Assembly (NCBI GenBank): GCA_030592345.1
Contig: JAUVJO010000003.1
Location: 1 to 33,548, forward strand
Direction: 5' to 3'
DNA: 33,548 nucleotides
Source of the DNA: Deltaproteobacteria bacterium
Lineage (GTDB): Bacteria > Desulfobacterota > Desulfobacteria > Desulfobacterales > C00003060
Part shown: positions 4,542 to 33,548 of the stretch, one piece after another
Position numbering within the stretch: the stretch's first letter is position 1
How the letters are laid out: each line of letters starts with the position of its first letter
Notes under the pieces: model-generated
What the model was told of the DNA's origin: nothing
The model's database searches: none
Seen by the model: only the letters and a program-made list of their open reading frames with translations
Position numbers and translations under genes: made by a program

Positions 4542-6327
4542 GCGTCTTCTGGCAATTGTTGTTCTCAAACTGCATTTTGTAGAGTTTGCAATACTCGCCT
4601 TGGCGGGCCATGAGTTCCTCATGTTTGCCATCCTCTACAATCTGCCCGTTTACAATTACGACTATACGATCAGCATGATGGATTGTGGAAAGCCTGTGCG
4701 CGATCACAAAGGTCGTGCGACCCTGCATCAGGTTTTCAAGGGCGTGCTGAACGGCCAGTTCCGACGCGGTATCAAGTGAAGAAGTAGCTTCATCCAGGAT
4801 AAGGATAGGTGCATTCTTCAGAAGTGCACGCGCAATACAAATGCGTTGCTTTTCCCCTCCGGAAAGTCGCACCCCCTTCTCACCCACCACGGTATTGAAT
4901 GAGTCAGGAAACCCTTGAACAAAATCATAGGCGTAGGCTGCCTTTGCCGCTGCTATGATGTCTGACTCGGATGCATTCAGATTACCGTAGGCAATATTGT
5001 TGTAAACCGTATCATTAAAAAGAATGGGGTCCTGGGTTACTATCCCTATCTGATTGCGAAGTGATTTGATCGTCATACCCCTGATATCGTGCCCGTCGAT
5101 GAGGACAGCGCCTTCGGTTACATCGTAAAAGCGAGGAATCAAGTTCACCGAAGTCGTCTTGCCTCCACCACTCGTTCCCACCAGGGCCAGAATTTCGCCG
5201 CTCTTCACTTCAAGGTTGATATTTCTTAGGACCATTTGGTCTTCGTACTTGAAAGAAACATTACGAAAAATCACTGAGTGACGCCCCGCATCGAGAGCCA
5301 CAGCGTCTTGCCGTTCTTCGATTTCCGAAGACATATCGAGGATATGATAGATTCGAACTGCTGCGGCCATGCCTTCCTGGATCATGTTGTTCAGTTCGCT
5401 GATCCTCTTGATAGGTTCGTACAACATGATCAGAGCTGTCATGAAAGAAAAGAACGTCCCCGGAGTTGATGTCCCTTGGATCACCTTGTTTCCGCCATAC
5501 CAGATTATGAGTGTGATACCGATGCCCCCCAGGAAGTGCATGACAGGCGAAGATAAGGATCTGACCATTACGGCCTTCATTTCATACTGAAATAATCGAA
5601 GCGTCTTTTCAAAAAAGCGCCTGTTTTCATAGGGCTCCATCCCGAAAGCCCTTACAATTTTCGTGCCCGTAAAGGTCTCGTGGAGCAGCGAACTTACGTC
5701 AGCCATGGCTTCCTGGGTCCTGGTGCTGAATTTTCGCATTCGCCTGCCAAATTTCACAATGGGGATCACAGCCAGTGGTAAAACAGTGATTGCAATCAAG
5801 GCCAGCTTCCAATCTCGATAGAAAATAACACAAAGTAACCCTATGATCGTAAAGAAATCCCTTAGTATCCCGGTAACGGCTTGGGATACCATCGACATGA
5901 CAATGTTAACGTCGTTCATAATTCTTGCCATCAGCAGGCCGGTGTCATGTTTGTGGAAAAACGACAAGGACAACACCTGAATGTGACTGTAGAGTTTGTC
6001 ACGCAACTGCTTGACAAGGTTATGTCCGACATAACTCATGAGATATGCCTGACCAAAAAAGGCCGCTCCTCTAAACAGGTAGAGTAAGATGATAACAAGT
6101 GGAAGGAGCATCAACATGGTCTTGTCTTTGTCAACAAAGATATCGTCCATTACAGGCTTGACAAGATAGGCCGTCGCGGCAGTCAACCCTGCCACCACCA
6201 TCATACACAACATGGCCGAAAGGAGGCGAAGCCACTGTGATATTACAAGGGTAAAAATCCGGCGGGATACACTTGGCAAGTCGGTGCCTTTTGTTTTTTT
6301 GTAGGCGTTCACAGGTTCAGAGTTCAC
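4528..6327 (-). CDS. msbA: Lipid A export ABC transporter MsbA
   Basis: Half-transporter that dimerises and flips lipid A-core across the inner membrane. The 599 residues carry a six-helix exporter domain (about 25-320), then an ATPase domain with Walker A GTSGGGKTT (384-392), signature LSGGE (488-492), Walker B ILILDE (508-513) and the switch His in VIAHRLS (544). The start is GTG at 6327 with AGGT upstream; the first eight codons lie in a GAACTCTGAACCTGTGAAC tract that resembles repeats found elsewhere between genes, so the true start may be the in-frame GTG at codon 6 or a TTG near codon 17. It lies between a lipid A-type acyltransferase and lptF, which supports the lipid A assignment over other ABC exporters. 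Confidence 0.92.
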   Translation of the reverse strand: MNSEPVNAYKKTKGTDLPSVSRRIFTLVISQWLRLLSAMLCMMVVAGLTAATAYLVKPVMDDIFVDKDKTMLMLLPLVIILLYLFRGAAFFGQAYLMSYVGHNLVKQLRDKLYSHIQVLSLSFFHKHDTGLLMARIMNDVNIVMSMVSQAVTGILRDFFTIIGLLCVIFYRDWKLALIAITVLPLAVIPIVKFGRRMRKFSTRTQEAMADVSSLLHETFTGTKIVRAFGMEPYENRRFFEKTLRLFQYEMKAVMVRSLSSPVMHFLGGIGITLIIWYGGNKVIQGTSTPGTFFSFMTALIMLYEPIKRISELNNMIQEGMAAAVRIYHILDMSSEIEERQDAVALDAGRHSVIFRNVSFKYEDQMVLRNINLEVKSGEILALVGTSGGGKTTSVNLIPRFYDVTEGAVLIDGHDIRGMTIKSLRNQIGIVTQDPILFNDTVYNNIAYGNLNASESDIIAAAKAAYAYDFVQGFPDSFNTVVGEKGVRLSGGEKQRICIARALLKNAPILILDEATSSLDTASELAVQHALENLMQGRTTFVIAHRLSTIHHADRIVVIVNGQIVEDGKHEELMARQGEYCKLYKMQFENNNCQKTHESK

Positions 6328-6358
6328 CGTTACCTATATTCCTCAATCCCTAATCACA

Positions 6359-6400
6359 ACTTTAGGCACTTTAGCTCACTTCAGACACTTTAGACACTCG
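6359..6400 (-). repeat. Family C tract (ACTTTAGGCAC / TTTAGCTCAC), single copy
   Basis: Repeats of the motif CTAAAGTG read on the minus strand, in the 76 bp between the DUF374 gene and msbA. The preceding bases (CAATCCCTAATCACAAC) also match the region left of the copy at 9603-9644, so this is a truncated member of the same longer repeat. No opposite-strand partner tract is seen nearby. Confidence 0.75.
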
Positions 6401-9457: not shown

Positions 9458-9475
9458 AGTTTATTCACTAATATA

Positions 9476-9517
9476 AAGTGCCTAAAGTGAACTAAAGTGA
9501 GCTAAAGTGTCTAAAGT
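9476..9517 (+). repeat. Family C tract, plus orientation (left arm of pair)
   Basis: Four spaced copies of CTAAAGTG (GTGCCTAAAGTGAACTAAAG and continuing). It faces the opposite-orientation tract at 9603-9644 across 85 bp, so the two could pair as stem arms. It lies just upstream of the Gfo/Idh start codon. Confidence 0.85.
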
Positions 9518-9602
9518 CAAGAAAAGGAGGATTTCAGGAATTGAGGTCGGATAGATATCTTTCAATTCACAATTCCCCGGTTCCCCAATCCTTAATAATC
9601 AC

Positions 9603-9644
9603 AACTTTAGGCACTTTAGCTCACTTTAGACACTTTAGGCACTT
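9603..9644 (-). repeat. Family C tract, minus orientation (right arm of pair)
   Basis: ACTTTAGGCACTTTAGCTCA followed by further CACTTTAG units, the reverse complement of the tract at 9476-9517. It ends three bases before the lpxI stop codon. Confidence 0.85.
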
Positions 9645-16860: not shown

Positions 16861-18109
16861 ACCTGATGGCTGCTGCTGGCTCCAATCTGGACGCTTGATA
16901 CGACGGGTAGAGAGTAGCCAGAAAGCTAATGGCTAGGGCCGATAGCGCTATGATAGTCACGTCCAGCACCTGGACTTTGACGGGGAGCGTAGAAATATAG
17001 TACACGTCGCTCGGAAGCTTCACGAATTCGTACCGCTTTAACAAATAACAAAGCAAACCGCCTCCCATCAAGCCGAGGATAGTCCCCACCACGCCAATGA
17101 TAAGACCGTCCATCACAAAAATTCGCATGATGCTCTTTGCCTTGGCACCCATGGATTTCAGGATAGCAATTTCCTTGGTTTTATCCATGACCATCATGAT
17201 CAGCGTGCTGATAATATTGAAGGCAGCCACTAAAATTATCATTACCAGAATGATAAACATGACAACCTTCTCCAGTTTTAAGGCCGAAAGAAAATTCCTG
17301 TTCATCTGCATCCAGTCTTGAGTCCAATAACCTGGTCCTAAGTGCTCCAGGATGGCATCAGAAATGCGCTTGACACTATAGACGTCATCCACCCTCACCT
17401 CTATGCCATGGACCGTATCTCTAAGCTTCAGGAGTTGCTGTGCTGATTCAATCGAAACATAGGAAAAAGTCGTGTCATAGTCGTACATCCCTGAATCAAA
17501 CAGAGCCACGACACTGAATTTCTTCATACGTGGCACCCGACCCCCAATCGGTGTAAGGCTTCCGCTTAAGGGTGAGATGACGTATAGTTCGTCTCCCGGA
17601 TTCGCTGTCAGCAGCCTGGCAAGCTCCTTTCCTAAGATGATCCCGGGAGGGGGTGCTGTTTCTGTCACTGTCCGCGAGCTGTTCTCTTGAGCCAATGCTT
17701 GCAAATCGGTCCCCTTCATGCACTTTTCCAAATCCAACACCCGACCAGCCCGCGAAGGGTCGATTCCCTTCAAGATGGCCCCGGAAACAGAGGGGCCGCA
17801 CCGAAGCATCACTTGACTGTGAATGAAAGGAGCTGCAGCCTCCACCCCCTCCACGGCCTCAATCTCCTTGATGACCTCATTATACGACTTCAGTTTGCCC
17901 ATTCGACTCATGACTCGGATATGGGCATTCATTCCAAGGATTTTTGACTTGATATCCGCGCTGAATCCGGTCATAACCGCCAGCACGACCATCATAGCCA
18001 TAACGCCCAGCATGACCCCTGCGATAGATATCAGGGCGTTAATTGAAATAAAAACCTGTCTCTGTTTTGCCCGAAGGTACCTAAGGCACACGAAGAATTC
18101 AAATCTCAT
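16853..18109 (-). CDS. Lipoprotein-releasing permease LolC/LolE (LolF type)
   Basis: Membrane partner of LolD. The 418-residue protein has a membrane segment after a short cytosolic start (about 20-50, MRFEFFVCLRYLRAKQRQVF then FISINALISIAG), a periplasmic MacB-like domain of about 200 residues, and three C-terminal segments (about 270-300, 320-350, 375-400) of the FtsX fold. Only one permease gene accompanies lolD, so it may form a homodimer as described for LolF-type systems; a second copy elsewhere is not excluded. No Shine-Dalgarno sequence precedes the ATG because a tandem family E tract ends one base before it. Confidence 0.9.
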   Translation of the reverse strand: MRFEFFVCLRYLRAKQRQVFISINALISIAGVMLGVMAMMVVLAVMTGFSADIKSKILGMNAHIRVMSRMGKLKSYNEVIKEIEAVEGVEAAAPFIHSQVMLRCGPSVSGAILKGIDPSRAGRVLDLEKCMKGTDLQALAQENSSRTVTETAPPPGIILGKELARLLTANPGDELYVISPLSGSLTPIGGRVPRMKKFSVVALFDSGMYDYDTTFSYVSIESAQQLLKLRDTVHGIEVRVDDVYSVKRISDAILEHLGPGYWTQDWMQMNRNFLSALKLEKVVMFIILVMIILVAAFNIISTLIMMVMDKTKEIAILKSMGAKAKSIMRIFVMDGLIIGVVGTILGLMGGGLLCYLLKRYEFVKLPSDVYYISTLPVKVQVLDVTIIALSALAISFLATLYPSYQASRLEPAAAIRYE

Positions 18110-18110
18110 T

Positions 18111-18203
18111 GGTTATTTGTCACTGGTTATTTGTCACTGGTTATTTGTCATTTGTCTCTTGTCACAAGTGGTAAACGAATCATACCAATGACAAATGACC
18201 AAC
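18111..18203. repeat. Family E tract: three 14 bp tandem units plus inverted arm
   Basis: GGTTATTTGTCACT occurs twice head to tail (18111-18138), followed by GGTTATTTGTCATT (18139-18152); about 40 bp later GACAAATGACC (18190-18200) is the inverted form. The tract directly precedes the lolC/E start codon and borders the family B element. Confidence 0.8.
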
Positions 18204-18365
18204 TATACCTCGGAAGGTCACAAGTTGCGCTTTTCTCGGTGAGTCATGAGCATCAAGAGCAAGGCGCGAAGGCGCGGAATAGCTGGCTATTGCAAGCCTG
18301 AGCAACACGGCTATTAATGTTCATGGCCGGCGAAAAAGTGTCATTTGTGGCCTTTCGAGGTATAA
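18204..18365 (+). repeat. Family B palindromic element, copy B1 (162 bp)
   Basis: About 95 percent identical to the copy at 23581-23742 (eight differences by eye). Ends are inverted: TATACCTCGGAAGG on the left and CCTTTCGAGGTATA on the right (13 of 14 pairing). The whole element is a quasi-palindrome centred on AATAGCTGGCTATT. It lies between lolC/E and lysS; its last base abuts the lysS stop codon. No coding capacity. Confidence 0.88.
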
Positions 18366-19844
18366 CTAATAACTAATATTCTTTAACAGGGGAAAGAGGA
18401 TCACTTCACGGATGGAAGGCGCATCGGTCAGCAACATGACAAATCTGTCAACGCCGATGCCTTCACCCGCTGTTGGAGGCATGCCGTATTCGAGAGCTAA
18501 CAGGTAGTCTTCGTCCATGTAGTGTGCTTCTTCGTCACCTTCCTCACGATTTTTAGCCTGATCCAAGAAGCGCTTTTTCTGGTCAATAGGGTCGTTGAGT
18601 TCCGAAAACCCGTTGGCGATCTCGTAGCCTCCAATAAAGAGCTCGAATCGCTCGGTCATATCAGGGTCCGAGCTGCTCCTCCTGGCAAGTGGCGAGATTT
18701 CCACTGGATAGCCTGTAATAAAAGTGGGCTCGGTCAGTTTGGGCTCCACTAATACGTCGAAAAGCTTTGTCAGGATCTTGCCTCTCCGCCCTTTTTTCGT
18801 AATGTGGATCCCTTTGGATTCGGCAAAATCGAGCAATCGCTTCCGATCATTGAACAGGGAAGAATCAATGCCGCCCAGATCACTCAGTGCTTCCTTCAGT
18901 GTTAATCGTCGCCAAGGTCCATCCAAGTCAATGTTCATCCCCTGGTATGTAAAATGAGTCGCCCCAAAAACCCGCTGGGTCACGAATCGGAACATCTCCT
19001 CGGTAAAATTCATAAGATCGTCATACGTCGCATAAGCCGCATAGAATTCCAACATGGTGAATTCCGGATTGTGTCGGCTTGAAACACCTTCGTTTCTGAA
19101 ATTTCGGTTTATTTCAAAAACTCGATCAACCCCCCCAATCACCAATCGCTTTAGATAGAGCTCGGGTGCTATCCGCAAGAAAAGCTCCATGCCTAATGCG
19201 TTATGAAATGTTTTAAATGGGGTAGCCTCAGCCCCGCCGGGGATGGGCTGCATCATGGGTGTCTCCACCTCGAGGAAACCCTGTTCAAGTAGATAGTCCC
19301 TAAAGGCTCGAATAATTCGTGCCCTGTTGATAAAAATGTCCCGGACACCCGGGTTCATAATCAAGTCAAGATACCTCTGGCGGTAACGCTTCTCCGGGTC
19401 CCTTAGTCCGTGGAATTTTTCGGGCAGTGGCCTAACCGCCTTACAAAGCAGGCAAATCCCTTTGGCCAAAAGAGTCCATTCACCTGTCTTTGTCTGAAAT
19501 ATTGTCCCCTTGATTCCGATGAAGTCACCAATGTCAACTTGTTTGAACAACTCGTAGGCATCTTCGCCAACCTCGTCTTTTTTTACGTAAGCTTGAAGCT
19601 GCCCCGTGTAATCCTTGAAATGGAGGAACGCAGCCCTTCCGAAAGACCTGAGCCCGACAATCCGGCCAGCCATTGCAAAAAAAGTCGAATCATCGGCAGC
19701 CGTATCTTTTTTGCCAATATGCTTCCTTACGTCCTCGACACTGTGAGACACCTTGAAATCGTTGGGATAAAGCTCGACACCCTGGTCAGCCAGTGCCTTT
19801 GCTTTTTCTCGTCGTTGGCGAACAACTTCACTCGATTCGTCCAC
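18366..19844 (-). CDS. lysS: Lysyl-tRNA synthetase, class II
   Basis: Charges tRNA-Lys. From a GTG at 19844 the protein is 492 residues (E. coli 505): N-terminal OB-fold anticodon domain (about 40-150, with GRIVGLRSFGRAAFLHFKD), then the class II core with motif 2 (FRNEGVSSRHNPEFTMLE) and motif 3 (GMPPTAGEGIGVDRFVMLL). This start gives DESSEVVRQRREKAKAL, matching the family start, while the longer ORF begins with a TTG that is part of a likely -35 box at 19905-19910. The C-terminus (FPLLKNISY) ends in codons next to family B repeat DNA. It heads the envelope gene train, an arrangement common in deltaproteobacteria. Confidence 0.95.
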   Translation of the reverse strand: MDESSEVVRQRREKAKALADQGVELYPNDFKVSHSVEDVRKHIGKKDTAADDSTFFAMAGRIVGLRSFGRAAFLHFKDYTGQLQAYVKKDEVGEDAYELFKQVDIGDFIGIKGTIFQTKTGEWTLLAKGICLLCKAVRPLPEKFHGLRDPEKRYRQRYLDLIMNPGVRDIFINRARIIRAFRDYLLEQGFLEVETPMMQPIPGGAEATPFKTFHNALGMELFLRIAPELYLKRLVIGGVDRVFEINRNFRNEGVSSRHNPEFTMLEFYAAYATYDDLMNFTEEMFRFVTQRVFGATHFTYQGMNIDLDGPWRRLTLKEALSDLGGIDSSLFNDRKRLLDFAESKGIHITKKGRRGKILTKLFDVLVEPKLTEPTFITGYPVEISPLARRSSSDPDMTERFELFIGGYEIANGFSELNDPIDQKKRFLDQAKNREEGDEEAHYMDEDYLLALEYGMPPTAGEGIGVDRFVMLLTDAPSIREVILFPLLKNISY

Positions 19845-19950: not shown

Positions 19951-20055
19951 TATAGACTTTCAAATATTAAATTTCACAAGGCCAGAGGGAGGAGGCTGTA
20001 TTGTAATACGCCGACGACTGATAACGCAGTGAAATTTAATACGTGAAAGTCTATA
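19951..20055 (+). repeat. Family A hairpin element, copy A1 (105 bp)
   Basis: Outer arms TATAGACTTTCAAATATTAA and its near-complement at the right end; internal constant strands AGGCCAGAGGGAGGA and GACTGATAACGC flank an inner hairpin (GTAT-TGTA-ATAC). Sits upstream of lysS and downstream of pilC. One change (C to T) in the right constant strand relative to other copies. Confidence 0.92.
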
Positions 20056-20238
20056 GACAGGCAATGAGGGAATAACGGCCCTTGAATCGGACCATGAGGC
20101 TTGAGACAAAAAAAGGGAAAAGTTCAGGGGTTCAGAGATTCAGGGTTCACCGAAACCCTGAACCTTTTAACACCTGCAAAGAGGACAGCCCTGCAATCCG
20201 CATTCCGAAATACTTGAGAAGCCACTTCATCCACCGCG
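20056..20238. other. Gap between family A copy A1 and pilC
   Basis: The lysS-pilC gap (19845-20238, 394 bp) holds the candidate lysS promoter, family A copy A1 and, in this part, only short TTCAGGG-type tracts including one hairpin at 20139-20162. No gene is seen. Confidence 0.6.
20139..20162. terminator. Candidate hairpin terminator downstream of pilC
   Basis: Perfect 9 bp stem TTCAGGGTT / AACCCTGAA with loop CACCGA, followed on the plus strand by CCTTTT and on the minus strand by a weaker T-containing stretch. It lies about 77 bp after the pilC stop. The same words occur in other intergenic tracts, so it may be a repeat unit rather than a real terminator. Confidence 0.35.
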
Positions 20239-21450: not shown

Positions 21451-21552
21451 ACGACACCTCTGCTCGCTATTCACACTAATTTGGGTTGACGTTCACAGGT
21501 TCAGAGTTTCCCGCTGAAAGCGGGGTTCAGTGTCACCCTTCTTTTGTTAGCC
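21451..21552. other. Gap upstream of pilC with GGTTCAG tract and CCCGC hairpin
   Basis: Contains GTTCACAGGTTCAGAG, which also occurs at the msbA start, and a small hairpin CCCGC-TGAAA-GCGGG (21510-21524). No clear promoter for pilC. Confidence 0.5.
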
Positions 21553-21665
21553 TATAGACTTTCACATATTAAATTTCACAGCGTTATCGGTCGTCGACGT
21601 ATTACAGTATTACAATACAGCCTCCTCCCTCTGGCCTTGTGAAATTTAATATGTGAAAGTCTATA
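21553..21665 (-). repeat. Family A hairpin element, copy A2 (113 bp)
   Basis: Inverted orientation relative to A1. Same outer arms and constant strands; the apical hairpin region is longer by eight bases through duplication of ATTACAGT-like sequence. Lies between the divergent pilC and PxxKW genes. Confidence 0.92.
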
Positions 21666-23444: not shown

Positions 23445-23580
23445 GATAACCACTCACTCTATTCTAGGCTACTCCCGGTTTCCATTGGAGGCCCTGCTGA
23501 GCAGGATTCTCCTTGCCCGCAAGGCCATTACAACAACCTCAAGCAATACGGATTTTTTGAAAAGTTAGTTTTTCTTGACC

Positions 23581-23742
23581 TATACCTCGGAAGGTTATAA
23601 ATGGCGATTTTCTCGGTGAGTCATGAGCATCAAGAGCAAGGCACGAAGGCGCGGAATAGCTGGCTATTGCAAGCCTGAGCAACGCGGCTATTGATGTTCA
23701 TGGCCGGCGAAAAAGTGTCATTTGTGGCCTTTCGAGGTATAA
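23581..23742 (+). repeat. Family B palindromic element, copy B2 (162 bp)
   Basis: Same length, ends and orientation as the copy at 18204-18365. The centre, AATAGC-TG-GCTATT at 23655-23668, is at the exact midpoint, so the element can fold on itself along its full length with mismatches. Lies in the 391 bp region between the divergent aminotransferase and ClC genes; the rest of that gap shows only AT-rich sequence. Confidence 0.88.
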
Positions 23743-23835
23743 CATGGTAGACTCATTATAAATCAAAAAGCTCAAGAAAGACGAATCTACCTTACTATAA
23801 ATAACTATCAGACTTCGGACCGAAAGGCAATTCCT

Positions 23836-26131: not shown

Positions 26132-26230
26132 GGGGCGTGTCCAGAACTTTGGGGATGCACTTATGAAACGACTTGCGCCACATTTGTGGAGTACATTAAG
26201 TGCCTAAAGTGAGCTAAAGTGCCTAAAGTT
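26132..26230 (+). repeat. Repeat D copy 1, continuing into a family C tract
   Basis: GGGCGTGTCCAGAACTTT, CGACTTGCGCC and CATTTGTG-AGTACATTAAGTG align with 33371-33482. The right third is a family C tract (CTAAAGTG units). Begins ten bases after the ClC stop. Confidence 0.85.
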
Positions 26231-26340
26231 AAGGTGTTCTGCCTATTTTAAATATGTTGCGCCGGAGACGCACTGCTTAATCCCGCTAAAGGCAGGACTC
26301 ACTTTCTTGCAATAATAAAACTGTTTCTTCAAGTCCTTAA

Positions 26341-26357: not shown

Positions 26358-26393
26358 CTCACTTTAGACACTTCAGGCACTTTAGCTCACTTT
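26358..26393 (-). repeat. Family C tract, minus orientation, pairing with 26198-26230
   Basis: CACTTTAG, CACTTCAG and CACTTTAGCTCACTTT units, reverse complement of the tract at the end of repeat D copy 1, about 130 bp away. Confidence 0.8.
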
Positions 26394-27200: not shown

Positions 27201-27205
27201 TGGAT

Positions 27206-27250
27206 AAAGTGCCTAAAGTGAGCTAAAGTGAGCTAAAGTGCCTAAAGTTA
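27206..27250 (+). repeat. Family C tract, plus orientation (left arm)
   Basis: Four CTAAAGTG units directly upstream of the truA start codon, paired with an opposite-orientation tract at 27304-27322. Confidence 0.85.
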
Positions 27251-27303
27251 AAAGAAAAAACCAAATTTTTGCAAAGAGTTTCCTCAGCTTGCAACCAAAA
27301 TTA

Positions 27304-28662: not shown

Positions 28663-28767
28663 TATAGACTTTCACATATTAAATTTCACAAGGCCAGAGG
28701 GAGGAGGCTGTATTGTAATACGCCGACGACCGATAACGCCGTGAAATTTAATATGTGAAAGTCTATA
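28663..28767 (+). repeat. Family A hairpin element, copy A3 (105 bp)
   Basis: Canonical copy: 28-base outer arms, constant strands AGGCCAGAGGGAGGA and GACCGATAACGC, inner hairpin GTAT-TGTA-ATAC closed by GGC/GCC. Lies between argC and infA. Confidence 0.93.
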
Positions 28768-29197: not shown

Positions 29198-29302
29198 TAT
29201 AGACTTCCACATATTAAATTTCACAAGGCCAGAGGGAGGAGGCTGTATTGTAATACGCCGACGACCGATAACGCTGTGAAATTTAATATGTGAAAGTCTA
29301 TA
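29198..29302 (+). repeat. Family A hairpin element, copy A4 (105 bp)
   Basis: Near-identical to A3; one change in the left arm (TATAGACTTCC) is matched by no change on the right, giving a single mismatch. It is 16 bp from the rpsI stop and 106 bp from infA, so any transcript passing from rpsI to infA would contain it. Confidence 0.93.
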
Positions 29303-30313: not shown

Positions 30314-30567
30314 GTGCCTGAACGAAAGTTACCCTTCCGTGTCATTTCGAGCGAAGTGAGAAATATGTTGTTTGTTGTTTACGGATTTCTTCCCGCTATA
30401 GGCTTTAAGATAAAGATTTTGGGAAGGCTAGAGGGAGGAAGGCGTACTCGTCGTACGTTGACGACCGATAACGCATCCAAAATCTTTATCTTAAAGCCTA
30501 TAACAGCGTGATCGAAATAACAACTAAAGCAGCCCCAACGAGAAGAAGGGGATTTCCGTTCAGGCAC
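30314..30567. repeat. Outer inverted repeat enclosing family A copy A5
   Basis: GTGCCTGAACG (30314-30324) and CGTTCAGGCAC (30557-30567) are perfect inverted copies, with further loosely matching sequence inward (CATTTCGAGCG on the left, GATCGAAATAACAAC on the right). Part of the 444 bp region between the divergent rplM and adk genes. The left side holds a GTCATTTCGAGCGAAGTGAG word resembling widespread REP-like repeats. Confidence 0.6.
30397..30502 (+). repeat. Family A hairpin element, variant copy A5 (106 bp)
   Basis: The arms differ in sequence from other copies (TATAGGCTTTAAGATAAAG...) yet form a perfect 26 bp inverted repeat. The inner hairpin is also different (CGTAC-TCGTC-GTACG). The constant strands AGGCTAGAGGGAGGA and GACGACCGATAACGC are kept. 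Lies between rplM and adk. Confidence 0.93.
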
Positions 30568-30596
30568 TAAGCAAACTTACAAGAAAGGAGAGGAGT

Positions 30597-31271
30597 ATGA
30601 ACATTTTGATGTTTGGACCAAACGGCAGTGGCAAGGGGACACAAGGGGCGATCGTAAAGGACAAATACAATCTGCCCCATGTTGAATCAGGGGCAATATT
30701 CCGTGAAAATATCGGTAAAGGTACGGAAATCGGCGTCAAGGCCAAAGAATATATTGACCGCGGCGAATTAGTGCCGGACGAAATCACCATTCCGATGATT
30801 CTGGACCGCCTGAAACAAGACGATTGCAAAAATGGCTGGCTCTTGGATGGGTTCCCGAGAAACAAAGTACAGGCCATAAAACTGGATGAAGCCCTGAAGG
30901 CCGCTGGCTTGGATCTGGATATTGTGGTCGAGGTGCTTCTGGATAGAGAAATTGCCAAGAACCGTATTATGGGGCGCAGGTTGTGCGCGAACGACAACAA
31001 TCATCCGAACAACATTTTTATTGACGCAATAAAACCGGATGGCGACAAGTGCCGTGTATGCGGTGGCGATCTTTCAACACGGTCCGACGATCAGGATGAA
31101 GATGCCATCGGCAAACGCCACGCTATTTACTACGATACTGATACCGGCACGTTGGCAGCGACTTATTATTTCAAAGATCTCGCTGAAAAAGAAGGCAAAA
31201 TCAAATATATTAACCTGGATGGCTCCCCCGGCGTAAAAGAGGTAACGGCAGATTTGATGTCGAAACTGTAA
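30597..31271 (+). CDS. adk: Adenylate kinase, metal-binding Desulfovibrio type
   Basis: Converts AMP and ATP to two ADP. 224 residues: P-loop GPNGSGKGTQ (7-16), AMP-site SGAIFRENIG, LLDGFPRN, and an enlarged LID. The LID cysteines and histidine are Cys130, His136, Cys152 and Cys155, that is Cys-X5-His-X15-Cys-X2-Cys, the pattern reported for the Zn/Co/Fe-binding adenylate kinase of Desulfovibrio gigas rather than the usual four-Cys LID. Strong AGGAGAGGAG upstream of the ATG. Monocistronic, not with secY as in many bacteria. Confidence 0.96.
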   Translation: MNILMFGPNGSGKGTQGAIVKDKYNLPHVESGAIFRENIGKGTEIGVKAKEYIDRGELVPDEITIPMILDRLKQDDCKNGWLLDGFPRNKVQAIKLDEALKAAGLDLDIVVEVLLDREIAKNRIMGRRLCANDNNHPNNIFIDAIKPDGDKCRVCGGDLSTRSDDQDEDAIGKRHAIYYDTDTGTLAATYYFKDLAEKEGKIKYINLDGSPGVKEVTADLMSKL

Positions 31272-31292
31272 GGACATCCAGAACAACTTCTG

Positions 31293-31326
31293 TGCCTGCC
31301 CGGAACAACCAGGTTTCAGGCAGGCA
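31293..31326 (+). terminator. Candidate terminator hairpin after adk
   Basis: Perfect 8 bp stem TGCCTGCC (31293-31300) and GGCAGGCA (31319-31326) with an 18-base loop, 21 bp after the adk stop; followed by TGCATTTAT, a poor T tract. Family A copy A6 begins seven bases later. Confidence 0.4.
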
Positions 31327-31332
31327 TGCATT

Positions 31333-31447
31333 TATAGACTTTCAGATAATTAATTTCACAAGGCCAGAGGGAGAAATCCGAGTAAGGCGTACGTTGTCGA
31401 GGATTTTGACCGATAACGCCGTGAAATTATTTATCTGAAAACCTATA
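31333..31447 (+). repeat. Family A hairpin element, variant copy A6 (115 bp)
   Basis: Arms are intermediate in sequence (TATAGACTTTCAGATAATTA on the left; right arm complementary with a few mismatches). The apical hairpin is longer and different: AAATCC pairs with GGATTT around GAGTAAGGCGTACGTTGTCGA. The constant strands AGGCCAGAGGGAGAA and TTGACCGATAACGC remain. Lies between the convergent adk and PilZ genes. Confidence 0.92.
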
Positions 31448-32100: not shown

Positions 32101-32187
32101 TGGTGCCGAAGGGGAGACTCGAACTCCCACGGGCGTACACCCACTAGACCCTGAACCTAGCGCGTCTACCAGTTCCGCCACTTCGGC
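32101..32187 (-). tRNA. tRNA-Leu, anticodon CAG
   Basis: Acceptor stem GCCGAAG/CTTCGGC, long variable arm (GTGGGTGTACGCCC region), T arm GTGGGAGTTCGAGTCTCCC and encoded CCA (32103-32101). The anticodon stem CTAGG/TCTAG closes loop TTCAGGG, giving anticodon CAG for CUG codons. 87 bases with CCA. Its 5' end is five bases from family A copy A7, an unusually close insertion. Confidence 0.96.
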
Positions 32188-32192
32188 ACTTC

Positions 32193-32297
32193 TATAGACT
32201 TTCACATATTAAATTTCACAGCGTTATCGGTCGTCGGCGTATTACAATACAGCCTCCTCCCTCTGGCCTTGTGAAATTTAATATGTGAAGGTCTATA
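32193..32297 (-). repeat. Family A hairpin element, copy A7 (105 bp)
   Basis: Inverted orientation, canonical sequence with one arm change (GTGAAGGTC). Placed between the tRNA-Leu 5' end and the divergent ribF. The tRNA promoter must lie inside or beyond it; a minus-strand TTGACA is at 32363-32358 with a weak -10 (TAGTTA at 17 or TAGAAT at 21 bases). Confidence 0.93.
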
Positions 32298-33370: not shown

Positions 33371-33482
33371 GGGCGTATCCAGAACTCTTGGGGGATGCAT
33401 TCTCTTGAAACGACTTGCGCCGCATTTGTGAAGTACATTAAGTGCCTAAAGTGAACTAAAGTGAGCTAAAGTGCCTAAAGTA
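33371..33482 (+). repeat. Repeat D copy 2, continuing into a family C tract
   Basis: Matches 26132-26230 with scattered changes (GTATCCAGAACTC versus GTGTCCAGAACTT; CGACTTGCGCC identical; CATTAAGTGCCTAAAGTG identical) and ends in CTAAAGTG units. As in copy 1 it lies shortly after a plus-strand gene. Another unit (AGTGCCTAAAGT) is at 33524-33535, and the window ends before any inverted partner. Confidence 0.85.
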
Positions 33483-33548
33483 AAGGATGATATCCATTTG
33501 TGTTAGAGAAGTACTTGCTGGAAAAGTGCCTAAAGTTGAAAGACAAAA

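Follow-up and report, generated by a model that had tools for sequence, protein, structure and literature searches.

MITEs with IS630-like arms in a desulfobacterial genome carry a conserved core that is likely selected as one folded strand

The analysed stretch of DNA, hereafter the window, comprises 33,548 nucleotides and belongs to a 3.26-Mb metagenome-assembled genome (MAG) that consists of 444 contigs and is 90% complete. It contains seven copies of a palindromic repeat, termed family A, in which two arms flank two constant strands (together J1) and an apical region, and two copies of a further palindromic element, termed D5. The positions are as follows.

18203..18366, + strand: D5 palindromic element of 164 nt with TATACCTCG ends and the signature CAAGGC ... 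CAACRCGG
19951..20055, + strand: copy A1, subfamily I
21553..21665, - strand: copy A2, subfamily I, longer apical variant
23580..23743, + strand: second copy of D5, with TATACCTCG ends and the same signature
28663..28767, + strand: copy A3, subfamily I, canonical
29198..29302, + strand: copy A4, subfamily I
30397..30502, + strand: copy A5, subfamily II, with left arm TATAGGCTTTAAGATAAAGATTTTGGGA, core and complementary right arm
30425..30437, + strand: left constant strand of J1 in A5, AGGCTAGAGGGAG
30438..30462, + strand: apical region of A5, GAAGGCGTACTCGTCGTACGTTGAC
30463..30474, + strand: right constant strand of J1 in A5, GACCGATAACGC
31333..31447, + strand: copy A6, subfamily III, the type common to other taxa, with a core type present in many Desulfobacterota
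31361..31373, + strand: left constant strand of J1 in A6, AGGCCAGAGGGAG
31374..31407, + strand: inner helix P2 (AAATCC/GGATTT) and apical hairpin of A6; P2 covaries across taxa
31408..31419, + strand: right constant strand of J1 in A6, GACCGATAACGC
32193..32297, - strand: copy A7, subfamily I, 5 nt from a tRNA gene (32104-32187, - strand)

The seven copies were re-measured within the window by scoring the outer 26 arm positions for Watson-Crick pairs, which gave 24, 26, 26, 25, 26, 23 and 25 pairs for A1 to A7, respectively. The first-pass annotation had stated that the arms of A5 and A6 differ from the others and still pair. This holds for A5 (26/26) and is overstated for A6, where only 23 of the 26 positions pair. 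Likewise, the statement that the left arm of A5 has almost no identity to the canonical arm goes too far, as the two are identical at 18 of 28 positions. In line with the earlier description, both constant strands, AGGC[CT]AGAGGGAG and GAC[CT]GATAACGC, were found in 7/7 copies, and the apical region occurs in three paired forms (GAGGCTGTATTGTAATACGCCGAC, GAAGGCGTACTCGTCGTACGTTGAC and AAATCCGAGTAAGGCGTACGTTGTCGAGGATTTT), with A2 representing a longer variant of GAGGCTGTATTGTAATACGCCGAC. Moreover, A3, A5 and A6 fold better than any of 200 dinucleotide-shuffled sequences, whichever strand is taken (z -5.5 to -10.9).

The window harbors additional repeats. Short repeats built on TAAAGTGCCTAAAGTGA are located at 6351-6399, 9473-9525, 9596-9644, 26164-26232, 26358-26382, 27204-27260 and 33437-33548, in both orientations and often as pairs 29 nt apart. 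A GGTTCAGAGTTCACCG-like repeat is present at 6296-6331, 20119-20154 and 21480-21515 and also flanks copy A2; related copies elsewhere contain CCCGCTTTCAGCGGG. Just 5′ of one D5 copy, a 14-nt repeat, TCACTGGTTATTTG, is arranged in tandem at 18106-18161.

The exact core pattern, which permits a gap of up to 40 nt, yielded 224 matches genome-wide, whereas a reversed control pattern yielded none, and the genome contains at least 200 copies of the element. Copies were gathered from regions totalling 795 kb, about a quarter of the genome, where BLAST returned 198 copies, 171 of them full length (132 of type I, 26 of the A5-like type II and 13 of the A6-like type III). With a length of approximately 105-125 nt, the elements are too short to accommodate a transposase gene. 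Type I is a young subfamily, and its copies diverge from their consensus at 1.7% of the positions in the arms and 0.6% in the right constant strand. Among the 132 type I copies, the arms, each 28 nt long, carry 70 distinct variants over 56 sites. Free variation in the constant strands, which the first-pass annotation had coupled to palindrome-correcting replication errors as an alternative, was not seen: distinct variants number 13 over the 13 sites of one strand and 7 over the 12 sites of the other. The base directly after GATAACGC in type I (A1 to A4 and A7) is nearly random, being T in half of the 132 copies, while its neighbours are almost fixed among these otherwise young copies. The exact core pattern, with the same gap limit, did not match in the 21 other genomes of the genus; a looser full type III pattern was present in 7 of 22 genus genomes, at 1-3 places each outside this one among the matches listed. 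In the type III copies L052, L094, L180, L228 and L236, the left end of J1 is replaced by TCCCGCTTTCAGCGGGA, which makes a separate small hairpin beside CCAGAGGGAG; such copies are found in this genome and in HyVt-30.

A TA dinucleotide is present at both ends in 145 of the 163 copies with enough flanking sequence. When the flanks were joined with one TA, clean, uninterrupted single-TA empty sites were found elsewhere, as exemplified by a type I element that had entered a type II element at the TA of J1 and by family A insertions inside D5 repeats. Only 16 of 143 classifiable copies lie inside open reading frames, compared with 81% expected from random placement. A partner transposon was sought in the genus by means of the terminal motif and a DDE_3 profile. 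One congener encodes an intact IS630-family transposase of 371 amino acids (G009:C189:3028-4244; NF033545, E 4e-73; DDE_3) flanked by the TATAG... terminal inverted repeats (TIRs) TATAGCTTTTAAGAAAAACATTTTGGGG and TATAGACCTTACGAAAAAGATTTTGGGG. The identity of the arms to these TIRs is 23/28 for subfamily II (both TIRs), 16-22 for the variants of III and 15 for I, and many coreless MITEs of ~100-230 bp in the genus have the same ends. Judged by this comparison, the TIRs are common to the MITE arms and the autonomous IS630 transposon of the congener. A DDE_3 search of the present MAG, 90% complete and in 444 contigs, gave no match, which may reflect the incomplete assembly; an IS630 gene was likewise not found in Fodinibius roseus. 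With terminal inverted repeats, TA duplication and empty sites, high copy number and short length, the copies are MITEs, and their mobility is secure. The structural reading of the first-pass annotation had missed this transposon nature, and, since the copies are transposons with IS630-like arms, part of the arm variation is of the terminal-repeat type.

When CAAGGCCAGAGGGAGG and CCGACCGATAACGCAG are placed antiparallel and ungapped, the inner nine positions of J1 read A-U, G.A, A.G, G-C, G-C, G.A, A.G, G-C and G-C. As this reading of the aligned strands permits G.A, A-U and G-C pairing, J1 is probably a non-canonical helix with tandem G.A pairs rather than an open loop. Thus, of the internal loop proposed previously, the constancy of the facing strands is retained and their openness is not. 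The complementary strand would have C.T mismatches, and G.A pairing thus defines one strand. RNA folding of this strand gave the same topology for A3, A5 and A6, whereas A5 and A6 fold differently on the other strand or with DNA parameters. The J1 strands are not inverted repeats of one another. In Fodinibius roseus, loci L282-L311 contain a second core type (TATCAACCCCTGAGCGA ... GCGCGAAAATGCAGAGATTGG) within the same arms, in which J1 appears altered on both strands together and which would provide a natural test of J1 pairing.

For the covariation analysis, 43 representatives at least 12% apart were aligned in a hand-set register and evaluated by G-statistics against alignments simulated on their tree. 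Pairs 31-36 (E below 1/60) and 30-37 (E 0.07), both in P2, rank first of 2278 column pairs, and seven of the top 12 covarying pairs are in proposed helices. In the outer arms, no single pair was significant genome-wide, i.e., over all 2278 column pairs. With only the 21 predicted pairs taken into account, about seven would reach the 0.05 level, three of them in the arms; pair types are diverse in P2 and the outer arms alike. Covariation in a larger set, to which the first-pass annotation had pointed as a check, therefore exceeds the tree-based null in the inner helix, and in the arms only among predicted pairs. Since the 43 representatives were found mostly through J1, its high information content in this set is partly built in; the BLAST set of this genome and a Balneolaceae set found via the arms are independent of this ascertainment.

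Under constraint on duplex DNA alone, equal numbers of G.T and A.C mismatches would be expected in the arms. Both were scored alike on the J1 strand. Over 72 lineages, we counted 115 G.T versus 58 A.C mismatches, with 39 lineages leaning to G.T and 17 to A.C (sign test p 0.005, Wilcoxon 1.2e-4), whereas the young type I copies are symmetric (40 G.T versus 36 A.C). The source lineages hence seem to be selected as a folded single strand. The young copies show little constraint tied to structure. Together with the lineage excess, this suggests that the lineages which spread were selected as one folded strand and that copies decay neutrally once inserted. The folded J1 strand, be it RNA or DNA, is likely to be under selection. 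Among the 132 type I copies, seven of nine double changes in the arms are complementary, compared with approximately 2.6 doubles expected in total, and the complementary ones cluster at arm positions 7, 9 and 10. As such doubles can arise through palindrome correction or from a small number of variant source copies, arm covariation alone is insufficient, and the palindrome-correction alternative retains room in the arms, though not in the constant strands, which do not vary freely. A GC-skew test for replication or transcription bias was not significant. Similarly, the orientation relative to tandem flanking genes was not significantly biased (72 same, 55 opposite, p 0.16), and there is accordingly no sign of a host cis-RNA role.

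The D5 elements display the CAAGGC ... AACGCnG frame of family A within different arms, and dozens of copies are present in the 795 kb. On the CAAGGC strand, D5 mismatches are 8-9 G.T versus 0-1 A.C, and this strand folds better by 18-45 kcal/mol in 13/13 copies measured (about -85 versus -56 kcal/mol). Relatives were found by a pattern scan of GTDB genomes and a covariance model; a MAFFT superfamily alignment misplaced the left strand and was excluded from modelling, and a defined pattern was searched instead. The core is present at least in many Desulfobacterota MAGs (HyVt-30, the CSMAG series, UBA5623, TRIP AH-1 and others) and also in Fodinibius roseus and the Balneolaceae MAG MES10. One Puniceicoccaceae MAG carries it once, in arms of the Fodinibius type, so that transfer or a binning error is possible. 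The Fodinibius arms consist of GGCTTTGAAAAACCAGG..TTTTGTTCAA and their own complement, unlike the TATAG arms, and those of genome G304 of GTGCACTGGC/GCCAGTGTGC. In the set gathered by arms alone, J1 is still present in most MES10 loci. Altogether, across Desulfobacterota and the Fodinibius group, the CAAGGC/AACGCnG core is enclosed by at least six families of paired arms that are unrelated to one another. The pattern GCAAGGCG N35-65 GACAACGCAG occurs in 18 of 395 genomes of the phylum at ~70 places, versus two control matches. Of the matches shown, nearly all combine paired arms, which comprise several unrelated sequences, with an AGGCGTA-type apical hairpin, and the majority fold better on the CAAGGC strand; one match (L385) is a chance match in coding sequence. 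Core-pattern matches in Ruegeria, Aeromonas, Lachnospiraceae, Bacteroidales and Halothiobacillaceae are coding and were set aside as chance, as were those on two viral contigs.

A BLAST search against plasmids gave no match. At the Rfam gathering score the window yielded only a tRNA, and two relatives were nowhere near the threshold; relaxed thresholds returned chance matches only. A literature search on sequence strings and on structured repeats of these taxa revealed no description beyond the legend of a Geobacter supplement. The elements may well constitute an unnamed superfamily in at least two phyla, whose members retain a single-strand motif (CAAGGC..GA / GA..AACGCnG), usually with the apical hairpin GGCGTAC...GTACG, for a ligand common to them all, and in which the flanking arms, including TIRs of different transposons, are exchanged whole.

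Correia/NEMIS elements carry a TATAG end. In Neisseria they have TA termini and a comparable length, as here, and a long stem-loop transcript, which is predicted for family A as well; however, the motif inside them is a duplex-DNA site for IHF, RNase III has been proposed to target their transcripts, and the CAAGGC/AACGC module is not reported there (PMC2229807). The RUP element of Streptococcus pneumoniae, paired with IS630-Spn1, is likewise a short non-autonomous palindrome with IS630-like TIRs and TA insertion, for which neither a conserved folded core nor a core shared with other arm families is described (PMC2229807). The REP families with GTAG or CGTC foot resemble family A in their palindromes, covarying stems and G.T pairing, and some REP dimers sit inside long palindromic arms (GGGaaGCTT-GAAAaACC, H. 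neapolitanus), like the Fodinibius arms; REP units measure 20-40 bp, whereas family A shows TA duplication, IS630-like arms and the J1 module (PMC3733652). The 2009 genome paper of Geobacter metallireducens lists, in the legend of Fig. S1, 24 "predicted short RNA elements" with the palindrome GRCGTAGCGCTGCTACGCC, which are multicopy and intergenic like family A (PMC2700814). On the other strand, this central palindrome matches the apical hairpin GGCGTAGCAGCGCTACGCC of locus L326 in genome G182, where both the GRCGTAGCGCTGCTACGCC string, as given in the published legend, and the CAAGGC/AACGC frame occur. According to that legend the elements are presumed RNAs from BLAST alignments, and it does not describe an internal-loop module, covariation or a transposon origin.

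Selection on a folded nucleic acid, as put forward in the first-pass annotation, agrees with P2 covariation, the G.T excess among lineages and the presence of the core in unrelated arms, except that the arm variation is partly of the terminal-repeat type. We consider it rather probable that family A is an IS630/Tc1-mariner-type non-autonomous MITE carrying a folded J1/P2 module selected as one strand, most likely RNA. As suggested by the congener's transposon, the outer arms would be the substrate of an IS630-family transposase that integrates the element at TA and thereby duplicates the TA. Inside the arms, J1 (CAAGGC[CT]AGAGGGAG facing GAC[CT]GATAACGCnG), closed by P2 and the apical hairpin, can pair on the CAAGGC strand by means of two tandem G.A motifs flanked by G-C and A-U pairs. 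The folded form would most likely be RNA from read-through of intergenic copies, and J1 would putatively be bound by a conserved RNA-binding or processing protein of the cell, which could lower the cost of insertion or stabilise the transcript. The next choice after RNA would be a DNA hairpin, extruded or formed on the lagging strand, to which a host protein binds.

The TA empty sites and IS630-like arms would also fit a plain duplex-DNA MITE, in which the arms are TIRs whose palindromic form is maintained by recognition of the terminal repeats and by palindrome correction during replication, a protein binds J1 as duplex, and the fold has no role of its own. The clustered complementary doubles in young copies and the symmetric decay of type I are in favour of this explanation, which is nevertheless unlikely given the one-strand G.T excess among lineages and in D5 and the covariation of P2 away from the terminal repeats; moreover, a symmetric duplex site fails to explain J1 strands that are not mutual inverted repeats. 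It appears still less plausible that the copies form a host regulatory RNA family acting on the genes beside them, a role put forward for the Geobacter "short RNA elements". Although the intergenic placement, the strand-specific folding and the fact that a related family had been annotated before (PMC2700814, legend of Fig. S1) are compatible with such a role, orientation to flanking genes is not significantly biased, and the elements insert into each other and into D5. In addition, their number is very uneven within the genus, with hundreds here, the short-core types in 0/21 congeners and full type III in only 7/22 genomes, at 1-3 places outside this one among the matches listed. A REP-type element moved by a Y1/HUH transposase on a single-strand hairpin would account for high-copy palindromes selected as one folded strand, and REP dimers inside long palindromic arms provide a precedent (PMC3733652). 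The TA duplicated at empty sites, the match of the arms to an IS630 TIR and the unit length of 105-125 nt instead of 20-40 bp render this explanation very improbable.

MITEs are usually regarded as terminal repeats that enclose a passive filler; in the present elements this filler is conserved and the terminal repeats are exchangeable. The core of this MITE may define a much wider, unnamed class. If J1 is kept for a single ligand in Desulfobacterota and the Fodinibius group alike, that ligand would be a host factor which small transposons have exploited repeatedly, and a large class of the intergenic repeats that genome papers record as "multicopy sequences of unknown function" would gain a function. 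One branch of the core class appears to be carried by Geobacter laboratory strains, which makes the idea testable.
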